A stretch of DNA of 64,000 bases, taken from Umezawaea tangerina (lineage in GTDB: Bacteria; Actinomycetota; Actinomycetes; Mycobacteriales; Pseudonocardiaceae). Both the position numbers and the translations under genes were made by a program. The stretch lies in assembly GCF_003002815.1 (NCBI RefSeq), contig NZ_PVTF01000006.1, positions 310,001 to 374,000 on the forward strand, written 5' to 3'. This document shows positions 1 to 64,000 of the stretch, piece after piece (the stretch's first letter is position 1; every line of letters begins with the position of its first letter). The notes below the pieces were generated by a model, which was not told the origin of the DNA, searched no databases, and saw only the letters and a program-made list of their open reading frames with translations.

Positions 1-1479
1 GAGAGCCGTCTTTTCCTCCAGGAGGGCACAAACAAAGTCTGTACGTGCGCGAACAGCCTCCCCGAAGCGAGCCAACTTCTCATCAAGATCTTTGTAAGTC
101 TCACCGAGGGGAGCAAGTGAACCTGCGCGAGGAACGTTGTTCTCCACGGCCTCGCGGATCGAGGTCACCAGCTTCTTTGCCCGACCTCTCAATACGTCGA
201 GCTTTGACTGCGATTCATCTCGCGCGAACTTCTCAAGAGAAGTAAGCATCAAGGCTGCCGCAGGCTGCAACTCCTGATGACATAGGACGCAATGCGCCTC
301 CGCGCCGACGTGCGGAAACTCGTGGTGCGGGTAGGCCTGGTCTTGGGAATATGCCCGTGCAGCCCGCCAAAGCCTCATCCAAGTTTCTGAACCAACACCC
401 TCAACACTGGTGCCTTCAAGAAGCGATGCATCCGCTTCCACAGCTTTCTGCTGTTCGGAGACTTCGACGATCAAGTCTCGGGCCTGTTGAACTTTGACAT
501 CACTCAATGCTTCTGCAAGACGACCAGCCGCGATATAAATAGGTCGCAACTGTTGTTCATGCTGTTTGTGGAGTTTTGCCTTCGTAGCCGGATCGCTTTG
601 GCGCAATGCTTCAAGCTCTTTGCCAAGGAAACTCAATCGAGAAACTTCAACATCCGAAAGCACCGCAAGCTCGTTAATAGCAGCAGCGCAACCGTCCGCA
701 CCCAGCTTTTTGATTTGAGCACTGACCATGCCACCTTCAATGAACCGAGGAAGAGCAGCTTGCTCAGCATGAAGGCTCCGAACACGTCCATCTATGACGG
801 ATTCAACTGACCCACACGCTTTAGCCAGCGCTTCCAGGAGTGTAAGAACCTCCGGCGCAAACGCTACGTCGTCTTCTTCAGTAAGCAGGTGGTTTGACGC
901 GGAAGTATCGAACAGGGTAATTTGGCGAAGTTCGGGTGGCGCAAGCTTTCCACTTTGCCACGAATGCGTAAGCTCATCAACACCGTAGTTGTATGCAACC
1001 TCAGCACTTGGCAAGTTTCCAGCAGCATCCGCATAGACATTAGGCAGAATCGAATTTATCTTGCCGCGAACCCGGCAAATCTGCTTCAAAATTCTACTGT
1101 AGCCGGATTTGCCTGCACCATTATCTCCATAAACGACAGTGATGCCCGCTGAAGCAAAAAGCAACTCTTGGTCAGCAGCGAGCAAGTTAACGTTGCGGAC
1201 TTGGCTGATCCGCGAAAGCTCTGTGGAGATACCGCCATCGCTCTGACTCGGAACATGATCTTCGGATAGAGGCTCGAAATTCTCGCATCGCCCAGTGGTC
1301 GCCTGCTGCAAGCAGAGCTCAGCCAACTGCTCCAGATCGGATGGGGTCAACGCGCCAGCAACCAGTCGACGCAACGCGTCTCGCTGCCAAAATGGGCGGC
1401 TCACCGACCACTGAACAACAGCCGAGTAGGCGGCGACTAAGTTGTTCTTCTGAGCAATCGGATCTACCATCTTTGGCAT
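1..1479 (-). CDS. AAA/SMC-like ATPase with Rad50-type zinc hook, 3' part beyond window
   Basis: Reading the minus strand from the ATG at 1479 gives 493 open codons to the window edge, so the C-terminus is missing. Walker A (GDNGAGKSGY) lies at about residues 118-127, after an N-terminal helical region rich in Trp/Gln/Arg. A long charged, probably coiled-coil stretch follows, with a CVLCHQEL motif near residue 397 that looks like the CxxC of a Rad50/RloC zinc hook. Proteins of this build include DNA-end sensors and anti-phage nucleases such as RloC, but the effector domain cannot be seen here. An AAAGGAG motif sits about 14 nt before the ATG, rather far; a GTG five codons upstream overlaps that motif. 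The gene has no close partner in view and is AT-richer than the transfer genes. A defence role is inference. Confidence 0.72.
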   Translation of the reverse strand, partial: MPKMVDPIAQKNNLVAAYSAVVQWSVSRPFWQRDALRRLVAGALTPSDLEQLAELCLQQATTGRCENFEPLSEDHVPSQSDGGISTELSRISQVRNVNLLAADQELLFASAGITVVYGDNGAGKSGYSRILKQICRVRGKINSILPNVYADAAGNLPSAEVAYNYGVDELTHSWQSGKLAPPELRQITLFDTSASNHLLTEEDDVAFAPEVLTLLEALAKACGSVESVIDGRVRSLHAEQAALPRFIEGGMVSAQIKKLGADGCAAAINELAVLSDVEVSRLSFLGKELEALRQSDPATKAKLHKQHEQQLRPIYIAAGRLAEALSDVKVQQARDLIVEVSEQQKAVEADASLLEGTSVEGVGSETWMRLWRAARAYSQDQAYPHHEFPHVGAEAHCVLCHQELQPAAALMLTSLEKFARDESQSKLDVLRGRAKKLVTSIREAVENNVPRAGSLAPLGETYKDLDEKLARFGEAVRARTDFVCALLEEKTAL

Positions 1480-58866: not shown

Positions 58867-59097
58867 CTGACTCCTCAGCTGGTGCGACCGCGGTCGGTTC
58901 GAGGACGGCGGGTGGTGGGTGACGGCTACCCGGCCGGGTCGCCCGTCACACGTCAGACTGTAGAGACCGGCACCGGGGTGGGCCATCGACGCCCGCGAAG
59001 TCGTCCTCAGCCTGTCCGGTGCGCGACGCGCGGACGAGGTTCCCCGGTGGTCGGCCGGCGGCACTAGGCTGTCGTGCACCACGAGACGAGGAATGCG

Positions 59098-59508
59098 ATG
59101 CCCCGTAGTTCTGTGCACGACGCAGGGTCCGGCTCTGGCCCCGATCACAGCACCCCCTTGCGGGTGCTGACCGAGAACGTCGACGGTGCGCTCGTCGTGC
59201 GGGTGGCCGGGGAGATCGACATGAACACCGCGCCCAAGCTGGGCGAGCACCTCACCGCCGCCTTCGCCGCCGCTGCCGCCGACGAGGCGAAGCCCGCGGT
59301 GGTGGTCGACTTCGGCGACGTGGAGTTCCTCGCCTCGATCGGCCTGTCGCTGCTCGTGGCGAACCACCAGCTCGGCGCGGCCAACGGCACCCCCATGCAC
59401 CTGGTCGTCTCGTCGCGGGCCGTGCTGCGGTCGATCACGTCGGCCGCGCTCGACCGGCTGTTCACCCTGCACCGCAGCGTCGACGAAGCGGTGGCGGCCA
59501 CCCGCTAG
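59098..59508 (+). CDS. STAS-domain anti-anti-sigma factor
   Basis: The ATG at 59098 has an ACGAGG site and is preferred over one eight codons upstream; 136 residues. The STAS core is ALVVRVAGEIDMNTAPKLGEHL, PAVVVDFGDVEFLASIGLSLLVANHQL, MHLVVSSRAVLRSITSAAL. The Ser in LASIG is the expected phosphorylation site. Divergent from the RsbW-like gene at 58866, it is its most likely partner. Confidence 0.9.
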   Translation: MPRSSVHDAGSGSGPDHSTPLRVLTENVDGALVVRVAGEIDMNTAPKLGEHLTAAFAAAAADEAKPAVVVDFGDVEFLASIGLSLLVANHQLGAANGTPMHLVVSSRAVLRSITSAALDRLFTLHRSVDEAVAATR

Positions 59509-59611
59509 CGCCGAACAGGCCGGGGTTCCCGCTGGTCAGACGGCTCAAACCTCGAACCGCCATGATTTTTCCAGTGTGGCCGAACGGCTCGCGGACCGCC
59601 ATCATGGGCTG

Positions 59612-59962
59612 ATGACCTCGCCCGATGGCTCGACGAAATCCACCTCCAGAGATGTCCCGACCGTGCTGCGCATGACCGGTGAGATCGACATGTCCAACAG
59701 CGACGCGCTGCGCGAGCAGGTCGTCGAAGCGCTCGACGAGGGCACTCCGGCGCTCGTGCTCGACATGTCCGAGGTGACGTTCTTCGCCTCCTCCGGCATC
59801 GCCGCCCTCGCCCACGCCAGGGAGTACGGCAAGCAGCTCGGCGGCAGGCCCGTGCACGTGGTGGCGAGCCGGAGCGTGCGGCGCTCCCTGGAGGCGACGG
59901 CCATGGACCAGCTCCTGCCGCTGCACCCGACGCTCGAGGACGCGCTGAACGCGGTGCGCTGA
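59612..59962 (+). CDS. STAS-domain anti-anti-sigma factor
   Basis: From the ATG at 59612, 116 residues. STAS elements: PTVLRMTGEIDMSNSDALREQV, PALVLDMSEVTFFASSGIAALAHAREYG, VHVVASRSVRRSLEATAM. Ser in FFASSG is the expected phosphorylation site. It is one of three STAS proteins in this 8-kb region and lies upstream of a stand-alone response regulator. Confidence 0.9.
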   Translation: MTSPDGSTKSTSRDVPTVLRMTGEIDMSNSDALREQVVEALDEGTPALVLDMSEVTFFASSGIAALAHAREYGKQLGGRPVHVVASRSVRRSLEATAMDQLLPLHPTLEDALNAVR

Positions 59963-60058
59963 CCCAGGACGTTCGTAGGTGGACGGGGTCGGTTCCGAGC
60001 CGCGCACGTGGCACCATGGTCCGGCACTGTCCCACCACGAACGGACCGCGCCGTGCCC

Positions 60059-60508
60059 ATGCTCCCCGGAACGATGATCGACGTGCTCCTGGTCGAGGAC
60101 GATCCGGGTGACGCGCTGATGACGGTGGAGGCGTTCGAGTACTACAAGGTCGCCAACCGGCTGCACGTGGTGCGCGACGGGATCCAGGCGATGGACTACC
60201 TGCACCGGCGGGGCGAGTACGCCGATGCCGAACGGCCGGGTTTGGTGCTGCTCGACCTCGACCTGCCCAGGATGGACGGCCACGAGGTGCTGGACCTGAT
60301 CAAGTCCGATGAGGACCTGCGGACCATCCCGGTGGTCATGCTGACGACGTCCACAGCGGACGAGGACATCCTGCGCGCCTACCACCGGCACGCCAACGCC
60401 TACGTGGTGAAGCCGGTGGACTTCGACGCGTTCGTCGGGGCCGTCCGGCAGATCGAGGACTTCTTCATCTCCGTGGTCGCGAAGCCGAGTCCCACCCAGC
60501 TCGTCTGA
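60059..60508 (+). CDS. Rcp1-like stand-alone response regulator
   Basis: The ATG at 60059 or GTG at 60053 starts a 149- or 151-residue protein. It is a receiver domain only: IDVLLVEDDPGDALM, LVLLDLDLPRMDG with phosphoacceptor Asp66, VVMLTTSTADED and AYVVKPVDFDAF (Lys). There is no output domain, as in the Rcp1 group that receives phosphate from phytochrome-like kinases. It may work with the neighbouring partner-switching genes. Confidence 0.9.
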   Translation: MLPGTMIDVLLVEDDPGDALMTVEAFEYYKVANRLHVVRDGIQAMDYLHRRGEYADAERPGLVLLDLDLPRMDGHEVLDLIKSDEDLRTIPVVMLTTSTADEDILRAYHRHANAYVVKPVDFDAFVGAVRQIEDFFISVVAKPSPTQLV

Positions 60509-60517
60509 CCCTCCCGC

Positions 60518-61075
60518 TCAGCTCGCGGCGACCAGTGCCGCGGCGGCCGCGCGGGCGTGGTCGGCCTGCCCTGGGTCGTCGAGGACGGCCGCGCTGACCA
60601 TCGCGCCCTCGGCGAGCAGGAACAGCTGCGGCGCCAAGGCGTCGGGCAGTCCCGCCGCCGAGACCAGCTCCGCGAGCTGCCCGGCGAACGCCCGCTTGTG
60701 CTCGCGCGCCAGTCGCGCCACGACGGCGGAGGTCGCCCCCAGCTCGCCGTAGCCGTTGACCCACGCGCACCCGCGGAAGCCGGGCTCGCGGAACCAGTCA
60801 CCAAGCCAGTCGAACACCGCCAGGACCCGGTCGCGCGGGTTGTCCACCGCCGCGACGAACGCCGCGAGCGAGCCGCGCCAGCGCAGGTCGCGCCGCCCGA
60901 GGTAGGCCTCGACCAGCTGCTCCTTGGCCGGGTACAGCGCGTAGAGCCGCTTGAGGGACACGCCGGAGCCGCCGCGGATCTCGTCCATGCCGACGGACTG
61001 GACGCCGCGGGCGTAGAAGAGGTCCTCCGCGGTGTCCAGCAGCCTGGTGCGCGCGGTGTCGTCGTCGAGGGGCAT
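60518..61075 (-). CDS. TetR-family regulator
   Basis: From the ATG at 61075, 185 residues. The HTH is [53 protein letters not shown], and the C-terminal domain is helical ([41 protein letters not shown]). Divergent from the DUF1348 gene, with a 14-bp inverted repeat between. Confidence 0.9.
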
Positions 61076-61105
61076 GCGGGATCCGACCGGTCGGGGTTGC
61101 CTGGG

Positions 61106-61143
61106 GAACGTGCGTTCTCTACGGTACCGGAGAACGCACGTTC
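61106..61143. promoter_or_regulatory. 14-bp inverted repeat, probable TetR operator
   Basis: GAACGTGCGTTCTC at 61106-61119 and its exact reverse complement at 61130-61143, spaced by 10 bases, lie between the TetR (61075) and DUF1348 (61162) starts. A dimer pair of TetR proteins could bind both. Confidence 0.85.
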
Positions 61144-61161
61144 TCACTCGGAGGCGCACCC

Positions 61162-61617
61162 GTGGACCGACCACCACTCCCCCCGTTCACCCTCGAGACC
61201 GCCTTGCGGAAGGTCCAGGCCGCGGAGGACGCCTGGAACACCCGCGACCCGGAACGGGTCTCGCTCGCCTACAGCGAGGACTCGGTGTGGCGCAACCGCG
61301 ACACCTTCGTCCGCGGCCGGGCGGAGATCGTGGAGCTGCTGACCCGGAAGTGGCGGCGGGAGCTCGACTACGCGTTGCGGAAGTCGTTGTGGGCCTTCAC
61401 CGACGACCGCATCGCCGTGCGCTTCCAGTACGAGTGCCGCGACGCCGGGGGCACCTGGTACCGCAGCTACGGCAACGAGAACTGGGAGTTCGACGCCCAC
61501 GGGCTGATGACGAGGCGGGAGGCGAGCATCAACGACGTGGTGATCGCCGAGTCGCAGCGGCGCATCTTCGGGCCGCGGCCCGAGTCCGAACGCGACTCGA
61601 CGATCCCGCTGCGCTGA
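61162..61617 (+). CDS. DUF1348 (SnoaL/NTF2-like) protein
   Basis: The GTG at 61162 gives 151 residues with the DUF1348 pattern: [88 protein letters not shown]. The fold is a SnoaL/NTF2-like cone. The function is not known; in many genomes it is next to a TetR regulator, as here. Confidence 0.9.
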
Positions 61618-61620
61618 CCG

Positions 61621-64000
61621 TCAGGTCCCGAAGGCCACCACGTAGGTGACCACCACGCCCAGCAGGTAGACCGGGTAGCCGACGCGGGCCGCCTTGCTCA
61701 GCCTGCGTTCGGCGACCTCGTGCCCGGTGCCCGCCAAGCGCTTGCGCAGCATGGCGACCAGCACGCACGTGGCCGCGAGCAGGATGAACGCGTAGTACCC
61801 CCACTCCAGCGCGACCGTGTAGCTGACCGACGGCAGCTGCGAGGTCACGTTGTTGAGCAGCACCGCCGTGCTCAGGATCGCGGTCACGCCCATCGACACC
61901 GGCGCGCCGCCGTCGGAGGCGGAGAAGAACAGCGACAGGTAGGTCACGCAGATCAGCAGCACCAGCGGCAGCAGGTTCTTGACCAGGAACGGCAGCGTGT
62001 CGCGGGCGATCTCCACCTCGCCCGCGTACTGGCTGTAGTAGATGCCCGAGGCGCCGTCGCTGTCGCCGAGCGCGTCGCTGCTGCCGACCGTGCGCTGGAA
62101 GAACCGGGCGGAGGTGGCCACCCAGTTGGGGATCTGGTTGATGCCCGCGTCCGCGTCGGCCCCGCTGCGCAGGTAGTGCGACGGCTCCTCGTTGAGGATC
62201 TCCTTGTCCGTCACGTAGACCACCTGGTCCGCGGTGCGGGACCGGTTCTGCAGCATGACGACGAGCTTCTGGTGGTCGAACGGGAAGCCGCGGAACTCGA
62301 AGCCGCTCTTGAACCGCTCCCCCACCCGGTAGAGCCGGTAGGTGGCACCGTCCTCGGTGACGTCGCGCAGCGGCTGGCCCAGCTTCAGGTCGGGTTTGAC
62401 GGCGTTGACGAACTGCACGTCGGCGGCCACCGGGTCGCCGGTGTAGCGCAGCCACAGGAAGAAGTCGACGAAGTAGGTGCCGTCCCTGGTGTCCAGGTCG
62501 CGGACCTCGTTGAGGTTGATGCCGGTCGACACGACCTGGCGGCGGCTCAGGTACCGGTCGCCGATGGCGATGGCGCTGCCGTCGGCCAGCGCGGCGCGCA
62601 GCGCGTCGGGCGACGGCGGCTCGTAGATCGTGAGCTGCACGGGCGCCGACACGAACCGCGTCCCGTCGCTCGTCACCACCGACACCGGCATCTGCGCGGA
62701 GCCGGTGGGGGTGAAGTACAGCGGGCCGAGCAGCGCGGGGAACGAGTTCTTCTTGTCCTTCAACGCCGCCAGCCCGTCGCGCACCCGCCGCCGGTCCTGG
62801 GCGCGACCGTCCTCGGTGAACACCAGACCGCGCGTGCCCATCGCGTGCAGGCCGACGTTGAGGGCCTGGCGGGCCGTCGCGGCCTGCCACAGCGGCTGTT
62901 CCCCGTACCGGCGCTGGTAGTCCTCCGCCCACGCCAGCGCGGGGCCGGAGAGCGAGTCGTTGGCCAGCGGCGTGCCCACGTAAAGGTTCCGGGTGAGCTG
63001 CCCGGCCCGCCCGGTCTCGCGCTCGGCCTTCAGCAGCGCGTCGTGGAACGTCCGGGTGCCGAGCGTGGCGGTGCCGAGGATCGGCGCCTGCACACCCGCG
63101 GCGCGCAGGCCCTTCACGACCGCCAGGCCGCGTTCCTCGGTGGTGGCCAGCACGATCGGCGCCGTCGGGTCGACCGCGCGCACCACCTCGTCCACCGACG
63201 TGCCGTCGCCCAGCGGCAGCGTGGCCGAGGCGGAGCCGAGCTTGCCGAAGGAGTCCACGAAGGCCTCCCGGACCGACCGGCCCGACTCGTCGGTGTCGTG
63301 GACGAGGGTCGCCGACCTCGCGCCGAGCACGTCGGCGACGTAGACCGCGAGGAAGTCCGACTGGGTGCGGTTGCCGAACATGCTGCGGAAGTACCAGTCG
63401 CTGCTGTCGGTGATCCGCGACGACGTGGCCGAAGGGGTGATCGCGGGGATCCCGGCGCGCTGGTAGATCGGTGCGGCGGCCAGCGCGGTGTCGCTGCTGC
63501 CGTGCCCGACGACGTAGACCACCCGGTCCTCGCGGACGATCGTCTCCGCGATCCCGGTCGCCTTGCCCACGTCGTCGGCGTCGTCGTAGACCAGCAGCTC
63601 CACCGGGTGGCCGTTCACCCCACCGGCCTTGTTGACCGTCTCCAGGTGCATCCGCAGGGCGTTCTCCATGTGCCGCGACGCCGTCGCGGCCGGTCCGGTC
63701 ATGCCCGCGACCATCGCCACGTACACCGGATCCCCTTGCTGGCTGCCGGAAGCGGTCCACACGCCCAGCACGCCGAGCAGGACGACCACCACCGCGCCGA
63801 CCGCGACCCACGACCGCACGGCCCGGCGGCCGGACCGGCCGACGGCCGCGGGCTCCTCGGGCCGCGGCGGGTCGACCAGGTCCACCACCTCGGCGGGCGG
63901 CACCGGCGCGACGCCGTCCAACGCCCCGCGCGCCCGACCGGTGGCAGGGTCGGCCTCCAGCGCGAACGCCCGGTCGAGGCAGAACCTCCGCTCGCCGTCG
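61621..64000 (-). CDS. Periplasmic-binding-protein/pentameric ligand-gated channel fusion, 5' part beyond window
   Basis: The frame is open to the right edge, so a cytoplasmic N-terminus (ending ERRFCLDRAFALEADPATG) is incomplete. After one membrane helix (SWVAVGAVVVVLLGVLGVW) comes a type I periplasmic-binding-protein domain of about 340 residues (VYVAMVAGMTGPAATASRHME, GVNGHPVELLVYDDADD, AGIPAITPSATSSRI). A channel ectodomain follows (GINLNEVRDLDTRDGTYFVDFFLWLRY, FRGFPFDHQKLVVMLQNRS) in the style of prokaryotic Cys-loop (Pro-loop) receptors such as GLIC. Four membrane helices end the protein: LPFLVKNLLPLVLLICVTYLSLFF, MGVTAILSTAVLLNN, TVALEWGYYAFILLAATCVLVAM and VGYPVYLLGVVVTYVVAFG. It would be an extracellular-ligand-gated ion channel. 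Ligand unknown. Confidence 0.88.
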   Translation of the reverse strand, partial: DGERRFCLDRAFALEADPATGRARGALDGVAPVPPAEVVDLVDPPRPEEPAAVGRSGRRAVRSWVAVGAVVVVLLGVLGVWTASGSQQGDPVYVAMVAGMTGPAATASRHMENALRMHLETVNKAGGVNGHPVELLVYDDADDVGKATGIAETIVREDRVVYVVGHGSSDTALAAAPIYQRAGIPAITPSATSSRITDSSDWYFRSMFGNRTQSDFLAVYVADVLGARSATLVHDTDESGRSVREAFVDSFGKLGSASATLPLGDGTSVDEVVRAVDPTAPIVLATTEERGLAVVKGLRAAGVQAPILGTATLGTRTFHDALLKAERETGRAGQLTRNLYVGTPLANDSLSGPALAWAEDYQRRYGEQPLWQAATARQALNVGLHAMGTRGLVFTEDGRAQDRRRVRDGLAALKDKKNSFPALLGPLYFTPTGSAQMPVSVVTSDGTRFVSAPVQLTIYEPPSPDALRAALADGSAIAIGDRYLSRRQVVSTGINLNEVRDLDTRDGTYFVDFFLWLRYTGDPVAADVQFVNAVKPDLKLGQPLRDVTEDGATYRLYRVGERFKSGFEFRGFPFDHQKLVVMLQNRSRTADQVVYVTDKEILNEEPSHYLRSGADADAGINQIPNWVATSARFFQRTVGSSDALGDSDGASGIYYSQYAGEVEIARDTLPFLVKNLLPLVLLICVTYLSLFFSASDGGAPVSMGVTAILSTAVLLNNVTSQLPSVSYTVALEWGYYAFILLAATCVLVAMLRKRLAGTGHEVAERRLSKAARVGYPVYLLGVVVTYVVAFGT

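Follow-up and report, generated by a model that had tools for sequence, protein, structure and literature searches.

A periplasmic-binding-protein domain joined to a predicted Pro-loop channel in Umezawaea tangerina, with relatives on an MscS pore in Azospirillum

At the right-hand end of the window, by which we mean the whole stretch of 64,000 nucleotides of Umezawaea tangerina DNA analysed here, a minus-strand open reading frame ends with a stop at 61621-61623 and stays open past the edge at 64000. Together with adjoining DNA of the same genome (sequence L001), it makes a gene of 845 codons plus stop, with a likely GTG start at window-equivalent position 64158, 158 bases outside the window, and ggagg upstream; 53 N-terminal residues fall beyond 64000 and are invisible from the window alone. 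The GC content at the third codon position is 0.95 in the channel frame. A preliminary description of the window had proposed a fusion of a type I periplasmic-binding-protein (PBP-I) domain with a pentameric ligand-gated ion channel (pLGIC), preceded by a cytoplasmic domain running off the window. The completed gene of 845 residues bears this out: a cytoplasmic part, a membrane helix, PBP-I, a Pro-loop ectodomain and a four-helix pore follow one another in a single frame (Table 1). No frameshift separates the two halves, and the same order forms one open frame in 21 aligned sequences, which were selected for being open.

Table 1. Features of the fused receptor gene, in window positions unless L001 is given, with residues of the full protein.
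Feature	Position	Strand	Residues	Basis or remark
Complete gene	L001:3622-6159			same genome; GTG start; ggagg at L001:6166-6170
In-window part of gene	61621..64000	-	54-845 + stop	
Cytoplasmic region, weakly TPR-like	63919..64000	-	1-80	in window only 54-80
TM0, anchor helix	63745..63825	-	112-138	hydropathy segment 112-140
PBP-I (Peripla_BP_6) domain	62665..63729	-	144-498	Pfam, PDB relatives
GHGSSDT	63487..63507	-	218-224	aligned with loop around LIVBP 79
TPSATSS	63418..63438	-	241-247	aligned with loop around LIVBP 100-102
DTDESGRS	63274..63297	-	288-295	Ser292 where 7/21 members have Tyr (LIVBP 150)
GTATLGT	63055..63075	-	362-368	Ala364 where 9/21 members have Asp
Channel ectodomain	61999..62583	-	526-720	alignment, profiles, hydropathy
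Pro-loop FPFDHQ	62269..62286	-	625-630	F, P, F, D and Q in 21/21
M1	61921..61998	-	721-746	includes Pro731; profile, hydropathy, alignment
M2	61828..61911	-	750-777	2' Ser, 6' Thr, 9' Leu, 13' Val; M2-M3 Pro776
Selectivity-filter stretch	61900..61908	-	751-753	-2' Gly, -1' Ala, 0' Pro
M3	61741..61818	-	781-806	alignment, hydropathy
M4	61624..61695	-	822-845	alignment, hydropathy

In a Pfam scan of the full protein, the binding domain was recovered as Peripla_BP_6 at 141 bits (cut-off 31.7; E 9.4e-41). For the channel half, the preliminary description had pointed to the Neur_chan profiles: Neur_chan_memb matched residues 730-802 (E 1.1e-7, 32.8 bits against 28.1), while Neur_chan_LBD gave no score. 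Among three other family members scanned, Neur_chan_memb was above its cut-off in L018 and L020 and below it in L019 (22.2 bits), and Neur_chan_LBD reached 13.5 bits in L018 (cut-off 26). On simple pLGIC-like Azospirillum proteins, Neur_chan_LBD gave 16.3 and 19.2, both below the cut-off, and 27.0 for a third; searched against the protein's own genome it found no match, but its control was silent too, which makes that search uninformative. A profile built from the ectodomain and pore of 12 family members matched GLIC, GLIC chimeras, GluCl and GABA-A chains (best E 1.9e-19), and these alignments cover the stretch around FPFD. Hydropathy detected TM0, M1, M3 and M4; M2 lies below the hydropathy threshold and was located by profile alignment. 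The Pfam scan found no MS_channel domain in the window protein, this domain being present only in the Azospirillum relatives described below, and there is no Cys in or around FEFRGFPFDHQKLV that could form the Cys pair of the Cys-loop disulfide. With FPFD at residues 625-628, Pro731 in the first of four helices and the profile match to GLIC, the domain order and the Pro-loop identity of the channel are supported at the level of sequence, as first described.

The cytoplasmic region is harder to classify. In the family alignment, 16 of its 80 columns are invariant. TPR_19 matched three of four members scanned, all under the cut-off of 25 (14.8 bits in the window protein, 20.8 in L019), and the Pfam scan of the fourth, L020, gave no TPR match. 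A profile of the N-terminal region found 13 weak matches in the PDB (best E 0.027), two of them named tetratricopeptide repeat protein 5; others among them are TPR proteins too. We call the region weakly TPR-like.

The 21 intact members aligned, the window gene included, come from Pseudonocardiaceae, Streptomyces, other actinomycete orders and Dormiibacter, and some are close relatives. The rows of L004 and L026-L030 are without their first residues, as the sequence stretch starts inside the gene. Outside the alignment are five broken or truncated copies (L021, L022, L031/L035, L054 and L069; the remnant G562 matches L022 at 100% across 3001 bases and is the same copy), L041 and some other long frames, and duplicates of genes already in the set (L005, L006, L025, L039, L040, L048, L049 and L064; the status was checked for L005, L006, L039, L040, L048, L049 and L064). 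The F/YPxD loop, the beta9 Trp (W679 in the window protein), the pre-M1 Arg (R719) and the M1 Pro (P731) are present in 21/21 members, and the M2-M3 Pro (P776) in 20/21. In a published pLGIC set the F/YPxD loop Pro is conserved in 100%, and the other four residues are tabulated as pLGIC features (PMC4795631, Table 1).

Mean pairwise identity rises from 0.56 in PBP-I and 0.68 in the ectodomain to 0.81 in M3 and 0.83 in M2, the two most conserved segments. Compared with its nearest relative, the window gene is under purifying selection, with crude dN/dS values of 0.32 for PBP-I, 0.17 for the ectodomain, 0.14 for the TPR-like part and 0.09 for M2; some values are high, for short segments (M1, 0.97 against L008; M4, 0.88 against L007). 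Because broken copies are not rare (the five above), the gene is evidently dispensable in some lineages. The window gene has a LacI gene and pectin genes as neighbours. We did not use these as evidence, and gene-neighbour reasoning was dropped, because among 15 loci compared only the Saccharothrix group (L011, L012, L013, L015 and L017) has a common neighbourhood. Outside it, neighbour matches are scattered, at one to few loci each; since so few neighbour genes are shared there, the comparison suggests a self-contained protein that would need no fixed partner gene for sensing or conduction.

None of the 21 members has an acid at -2' or -1', and all have 6' Thr, 9' Leu and 13' Val. The 0' residue is Pro in the window protein and Arg in 6/21 members; L027 carries PARV at -2' to 1', identical to the glycine-receptor stretch in the profile alignment. 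An Arg at 0' is typical of anion channels and an acidic ring of cation channels. The pore is without this acidic ring, and we predict that it prefers anions or has weak selectivity. A basic residue at 0' is common but not universal, being found in 79% of the published pLGIC set (PMC4795631).

The PDB relatives of PBP-I (3hut, E 6.4e-23; 4gnr, 1.1e-19; LIVBP, 6.2e-17; also 3ipc) are of the amino-acid-binding kind. At LIVBP positions 79, 102, 150 and 226, which we take to be ligand pocket positions, the window protein keeps the residues at the first two and has Ser and Ala at the others, the 226 position being placed from the 4gnr alignment alone. In the window's clade the pocket Tyr is lost in 13/13 members and the acid in 12/13; both are present in other members, and 7/21 retain both of these lobe-2 residues. 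The amino-acid-like ligand proposed earlier thus agrees with the kind of domain, but is weakened by the loss of Tyr and acid from this clade's pocket, and the window protein may bind something other than a plain alpha-amino acid.

A homologous PBP-I and ectodomain pair sits on an MscS pore in Azospirillum proteins (L023, L024, L036-L038 and L055). All four that were scanned have PF00924, and one protein of this type also has a cyclic-nucleotide domain; in L023, L024 and L036-L038 the first membrane helix is near the N-terminus. L023 is 29.6% identical to the window protein over residues 145-663, and profile comparison of the MscS-type ectodomain with that of the family gave a probability of 99.6. 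The homology of the ectodomains rests on these two comparisons and an ectodomain search, not on a PDB search of L023, whose ectodomain alone, as a single sequence, gave no pLGIC match (best E 1.2). Unlike the window family, the four MscS-type rows aligned are without FPFD and the pre-M1 Arg; they have retained the beta-sandwich core but neither the F/YPxD tip nor the D-R salt-bridge pair, both of which couple the ectodomain to a pentameric pore. Among plasmids, nine records matched the ectodomain and all are from Azospirillum; we saw no fusion of PBP-I to a pLGIC pore there (5/9 examined). Another weak search match, G167, is presumably an unrelated membrane protein and was not counted as a channel.

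With the window PBP-I as query, the best 40 of 524 matches are headed by an MscS-type protein at 134 bits; a second reached 108, but the remaining MscS-type rows (96-101) scored about the same as free PBPs, which reach 97. With the L018 PBP-I, the MscS-type rows scored 113-131 and the best free PBP 107, among the best 30 of 507. These scores give moderate grounds for believing that PBP-I and ectodomain were inherited as one unit, which seems portable between unrelated channels. E. coli MscS is homoheptameric.

We propose, with a probability of about two in three, that the window protein is a self-contained, chemically gated Pro-loop channel in which closure of PBP-I opens a pentameric pore. 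Five copies would assemble in the cell membrane, each with its short TPR-like part in the cytoplasm, TM0 spanning the membrane and PBP-I outside. The PBP-I 'flytrap' would close on a small solute, and closure would be transmitted through the beta-sandwich ectodomain to the FPFD loop and the pre-M1 Arg and on to M2, where the hydrophobic gate at 9' Leu would open. The solute would then be reported to the cell by ion flux or by a putative cytoplasmic partner of the TPR-like part. If PBP-I gates through the ectodomain, a homologous pair is expected on another pore type, as in Azospirillum. Against this reading we counted the silence of Neur_chan_LBD, the 0' Pro, TPR scores below every Pfam cut-off, the high dN/dS of M1 and M4, and the five broken copies.

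Other readings divide the work between the domains differently. Tasneem et al. (PMC549065) proposed that such a binding domain acts as a concentrator; here it would capture the solute and pass it on to the ectodomain, whose classical inter-subunit site would gate the channel. Across the 21 rows nine aromatic residues of the ectodomain are indeed invariant, two of which (F622 and F625) are lost in the MscS-type rows. However, W569, F583, Y607, F616 and W679 are kept in 4/4 of those rows, which are without the pLGIC coupling residues; these five seem to belong to the core of the fold and not to a ligand site specific to this pore. We consider this reading unlikely. It is quite unlikely that PBP-I only modulates or assembles the channel, as in the N-terminal domains of ionotropic glutamate receptors, with protons, ions or an ectodomain ligand opening it. 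The lower identity of PBP-I than of ectodomain and M2 and the pocket losses of the window clade would fit such a role, and the N-terminal domain of DeCLIC affects gating kinetics (PMC9897478, PMC12664993), yet PBP-I is present in every intact copy of the fused family and a third of the members (7/21) retain both lobe-2 pocket residues.

That the protein conducts nothing and signals inward through its TPR-like part, whose 16 invariant columns would speak for this reading, appears very improbable against the conservation of M2 and M3 and the invariant 6', 9' and 13' positions. An assembly or frame artefact is scarcely credible: high-GC DNA does hold long false frames and five relatives are broken, but the same order recurs in 20 more intact members, a few of which may be close relatives but not all, and the third-position GC fits a coding frame.

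GLIC and other simple prokaryotic pLGICs resemble the window protein in ectodomain and four-helix pore, with profile matches to GLIC, but have neither PBP-I nor TM0; GLIC has Glu at its selectivity filter, in contrast to the acid-free filter of the window family. Glycine and GABA-A receptors share the M2 pattern, including the PARV of L027, whereas the window family is without the Cys pair and has PBP-I, and the window protein's 0' residue is Pro, not Arg. DeCLIC is a pLGIC with an additional periplasmic N-terminal domain, but that domain consists of a pair of jelly-roll lobes and has calcium sites (PMC9897478, PMC12664993). Ionotropic glutamate receptors likewise carry PBP-I on a ligand-gated channel, but of another class and with an extra PBP-II domain (PMC549065). 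The fusion principle itself has been known since 2004, when Tasneem et al. (PMC549065) reported that ART-LGICs of Magnetospirillum magnetotacticum and Bradyrhizobium japonicum carry PBP-I on the N-terminal side of a pLGIC ectodomain and pore, in one chain. The main text of that paper does not use the words 'actinobacteria', 'Streptomyces' or 'TPR', and its description of the fusions, on which our comparison is based, mentions no cytoplasmic TPR-like part or TM0. Judged from sequence, what differs here is the cytoplasmic part and anchor helix, the absence of an acid at -2'/-1' and the pocket losses of the window clade.

Taken jointly, the data leave an even chance that PBP-I and ectodomain form a portable gating cassette, which drives an MscS pore in Azospirillum, where the coupling D-R pair and F/YPxD tip are missing, and a pentameric pore of the Cys-loop type in actinobacteria and Dormiibacter. 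Basal actinobacterial members would then resemble anion channels gated by amino acids, and the window clade would since have changed both pocket and filter. Among the open-licence titles listed by our literature searches, we saw none on such receptors in actinomycetes, in keeping with the earlier remark that they are hardly studied. As of 2016, no biological role was known for any pLGIC of unicellular organisms (Jaiteh et al., PMC4795631), and DeCLIC is described in 2025 as the only pLGIC with a partly characterised N-terminal domain (PMC12664993). An external flytrap on the channel offers a direct route to the ligand through purified PBP-I. If the PBP-I and ectodomain pair works on two unrelated pores, comparing the two would make it possible to test what the Pro-loop does and how the ectodomain serves as a transmission, and the question would be how the ectodomain of a five-fold channel sits on an MscS pore.

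The open reading frame at the edge of the window had been described as a fusion of a type I periplasmic-binding (PBP-I) domain with a pentameric ligand-gated (Pro-loop) channel (pLGIC), and the fusion is real, as Peripla_BP_6 and Neur_chan_memb (E 1.1e-7) both exceed their cut-offs in the full protein. Neur_chan_LBD, the ectodomain profile, gives no score in this protein. The 53 N-terminal residues beyond the window were supplied by the organism's own genome (10.68 Mb, 34 contigs), giving a protein of 845 aa whose likely GTG start is preceded by ggagg; third-position GC of the frame is 0.95. In the PDB, a profile built from the ectodomain and pore of 12 family members reaches a best E of 1.9e-19, its matches being GLIC, GLIC chimeras and chains of GluCl and GABA-A; the PBP-I domain matches amino-acid-binding proteins (best E 6.4e-23).

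Features of the fusion gene, its neighbours and the Azospirillum proteins (L001, the window's own genome; other L numbers, fetched loci)
Feature	Position	Strand	Remarks
Window gene	stop 61621-61623, exits window at 64000; L001:3622-6159	minus	open frame
TPR-like region, weak	residues 1-80	minus	TPR matches below cut-off
TM0 membrane helix	residues 112-140
Peripla_BP_6 (PBP-I)	residues 144-498		Pfam E 9.4e-41
Channel ectodomain	residues about 526-720		FPFDHQ at 625-630
M1 to M4	after ectodomain, C-terminal
LacI-type regulator	L001:6340-7368	minus	beyond window
Pectate lyase + pectinesterase domain protein	L001:7604-9943	plus
TetR-type regulator	window 60518-61177	minus
DUF1348/SnoaL-like protein	window 61162-61617	plus
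Two STAS-domain proteins	window 59074-59508, 59576-59962	plus
Lone response-regulator receiver domain	window 60008-60508	plus
PBP-I+ectodomain+MscS proteins	L023:2866-5934, L024:2860-5943, L036, L037, L038, L055:1367-4870		Azospirillum plasmids
Simple-pLGIC-like frames	L056:993-2156, L057:1033-2313		plasmid pAB510b; FPFDRQ; under Neur_chan_LBD cut-off
Simple-pLGIC-like frame	L058:1289-2923		A. argentinense plasmid

The N-terminus would lie inside the cell rather than form a signal peptide, given the long conserved region that precedes TM0, the helix before PBP-I, and the Arg-rich stretch directly before it. TPR_19 was under cut-off wherever Pfam found it (3/4 family members scanned), and a profile search with the first 85 residues gave 13 weak matches (best E 0.027), with tetratricopeptide repeat protein 5 among the names; some of the others are presumably TPR proteins as well.

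Just upstream of the gene, a LacI-type regulator and the protein with pectate lyase and pectinesterase domains precede transporter-like genes in what is probably a pectin-use locus; these genes are not conserved beside the channel gene in the other loci of the 15 compared. On the window side, the TetR-type regulator is divergent from the SnoaL-like protein, and the STAS-domain proteins are followed by the receiver domain. Across 15 loci, members of the Saccharothrix group share neighbouring genes; elsewhere the matches are scattered, each involving between one and a few loci.

A scan of bacterial and archaeal genomes yielded 16 loci, 14 full-length and two broken (L021, L022), in Saccharothrix, Umezawaea, Lentzea, Amycolatopsis, Solihabitans, Actinokineospora, a strain labelled Nocardia, another Pseudonocardiaceae, one Streptomyces and two Dormiibacter genomes. 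The distribution of the fusion gene is patchy. In samples that included the window genome, matches were found in 21/297 genomes at family level (19 with E < 1e-100, one weak and one 57-aa remnant, L022) and in 10/394 at class level (six long frames, one broken, three weak). The phylum-level sample gave 6/396, namely the window genome and five others whose frames, at 285-408 aa, are as long as those of simple channels, and the Dormiibacter phylum 3/201 (one intact, one broken, one truncated). Five copies are broken, frame-split or truncated (L021, L022, L031/L035, L054, L069), the last overlapped by a transposase-like frame that we take to be of IS110 type. Simple pLGIC-like proteins with FPFDR and lacking PBP-I also occur in actinobacteria (L032 and L033 in actinomycetes, L062 in the same phylum).

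We aligned the 14 full-length loci with the window gene and its nearest relative, L004 (16 rows), and extended this to 21 fused sequences with five open frames from other actinomycete genomes (L026-L030), which match only from residue 13-26 because the fetched stretches start within the gene; L028 and L029, both counted, are nearly alike. In the 16-row alignment, mean pairwise identity was 0.83 for M2, 0.81 for M3, 0.77 for M1, 0.68 for the ectodomain, 0.61 for the TPR-like region, 0.56 for PBP-I, 0.55 for M4 and 0.38 for TM0. Crude dN/dS against L004 was 0.32 for PBP-I, 0.17 for the ectodomain, 0.14 for the TPR-like region and 0.09 for M2; against three remoter relatives it was mostly higher and noisier, reaching 0.97 (M1 against L008).

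The seven best-conserved superfamily positions, as listed in PMC4795631, are the loop F, P and D, the beta9 Trp, the pre-M1 Arg, the M1 Pro and the M2-M3 Pro. All are present in 21/21 fused rows save the last (20/21), and M2 has 6' Thr, 9' Leu and 13' Val in 21/21. None of the 21 rows has an acid at -2' or -1'; the 0' residue is Pro in 12, Arg in six, Ala in two and Gly in one, and in L027 the PARV at -2' to 1' is the stretch of the glycine receptor when the family profile is aligned with PDB chains. Tasneem et al. linked A-[RK] to anion channels and already expected both selectivities in bacterial members (PMC549065); Jaiteh et al. caution that the motif is generally insufficient in prokaryotes (PMC4795631). 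The pore thus does not look like a classical cation channel and is perhaps, at most, anion-preferring.

Aligned with LIVBP and 4gnr, amino-acid-binding proteins of known structure, the window protein retains the lobe-1 loops GHGSSDT and TPSATSS, with Ser at the place of LIVBP Tyr150 and Ala at that of the lobe-2 acid; the aligned residues presumably contact ligand in LIVBP. Across the fused rows the pocket Tyr is found in 7/21 and the Asp in 9/21. When six simple channels were added to the tree, the 21 fused proteins formed one group (100/100), although the great length of the branches that join them could make this grouping misleading. The six Arg-0' members fall outside a 14-row Pseudonocardiaceae-type group (87/73, not strong), and the 13-row clade with the window protein (100/100) lacks the Tyr in 13/13 and the Asp in 12/13. 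Because L020 (neither 0' Arg nor Tyr, Asp retained) and L026 (no 0' Arg, both pocket residues retained) hold mixed states, filter and pocket appear to have changed in neighbouring, not identical, branches; this describes the rows rather than testing the point.

Searched by itself against plasmids, the 219-aa ectodomain matched nine records, each of them from Azospirillum (E 9e-11 to 2e-14). Six proteins from five of these match the window protein over PBP-I and ectodomain (E 1e-55 to 6e-48 in a two-sequence database), L023 over residues 145-663 of the window protein, and the other five align with L023 across most of its length. The pore that follows is MscS rather than that of a pLGIC (PF00924 in 4/4 scanned, E 4.2e-18 to 3.3e-15), and L055, a 1168-aa frame, also carries cNMP_binding (E 7.1e-18). 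Comparing profiles of the fused-family and MscS-type ectodomains gave a probability of 99.6 (E 5e-24), with column shuffles below 1% in 5/5; a single-sequence PDB search with the L023 ectodomain found no pLGIC match, which counts against homology. W569, F583, Y607, Y610, F616 and W679 are retained in 4/4 MscS-type rows, from which F622, F625, D628 and R719 are absent, as are Y562, F567 and F687; the loop Pro still aligns in 3/4. In pLGICs the loop Asp forms a salt bridge with the pre-M1 Arg (PMC4795631), and MscS is a homoheptamer (PMC5661003). The simple-pLGIC-like frames L056, L057 and L058 share plasmids with MscS-type proteins, and pAB510b holds two of each, its PBP-I/MscS genes both annotated 'ABC transporter substrate-binding protein'.

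The fusion principle is already known, since a 2004 paper described PBP-I/pLGIC fusions from Magnetospirillum and Bradyrhizobium (PMC549065). Among the literature matches listed, with most subscription journals outside their scope, we found none that dealt with the actinobacterial form or with a PBP-I/ectodomain/MscS protein, and the word 'MscS' is absent from PMC549065.

It is possible that PBP-I merely concentrates the solute or acts as a modulator, and possible too that the protein is a receptor that does not conduct. In the working we propose, solute binding would close PBP-I, the ectodomain would relay the resulting strain to the pore, and the pore would open on it. The strongest case for the ectodomain's likely role as the transmission between PBP-I and pore comes from the Azospirillum proteins.
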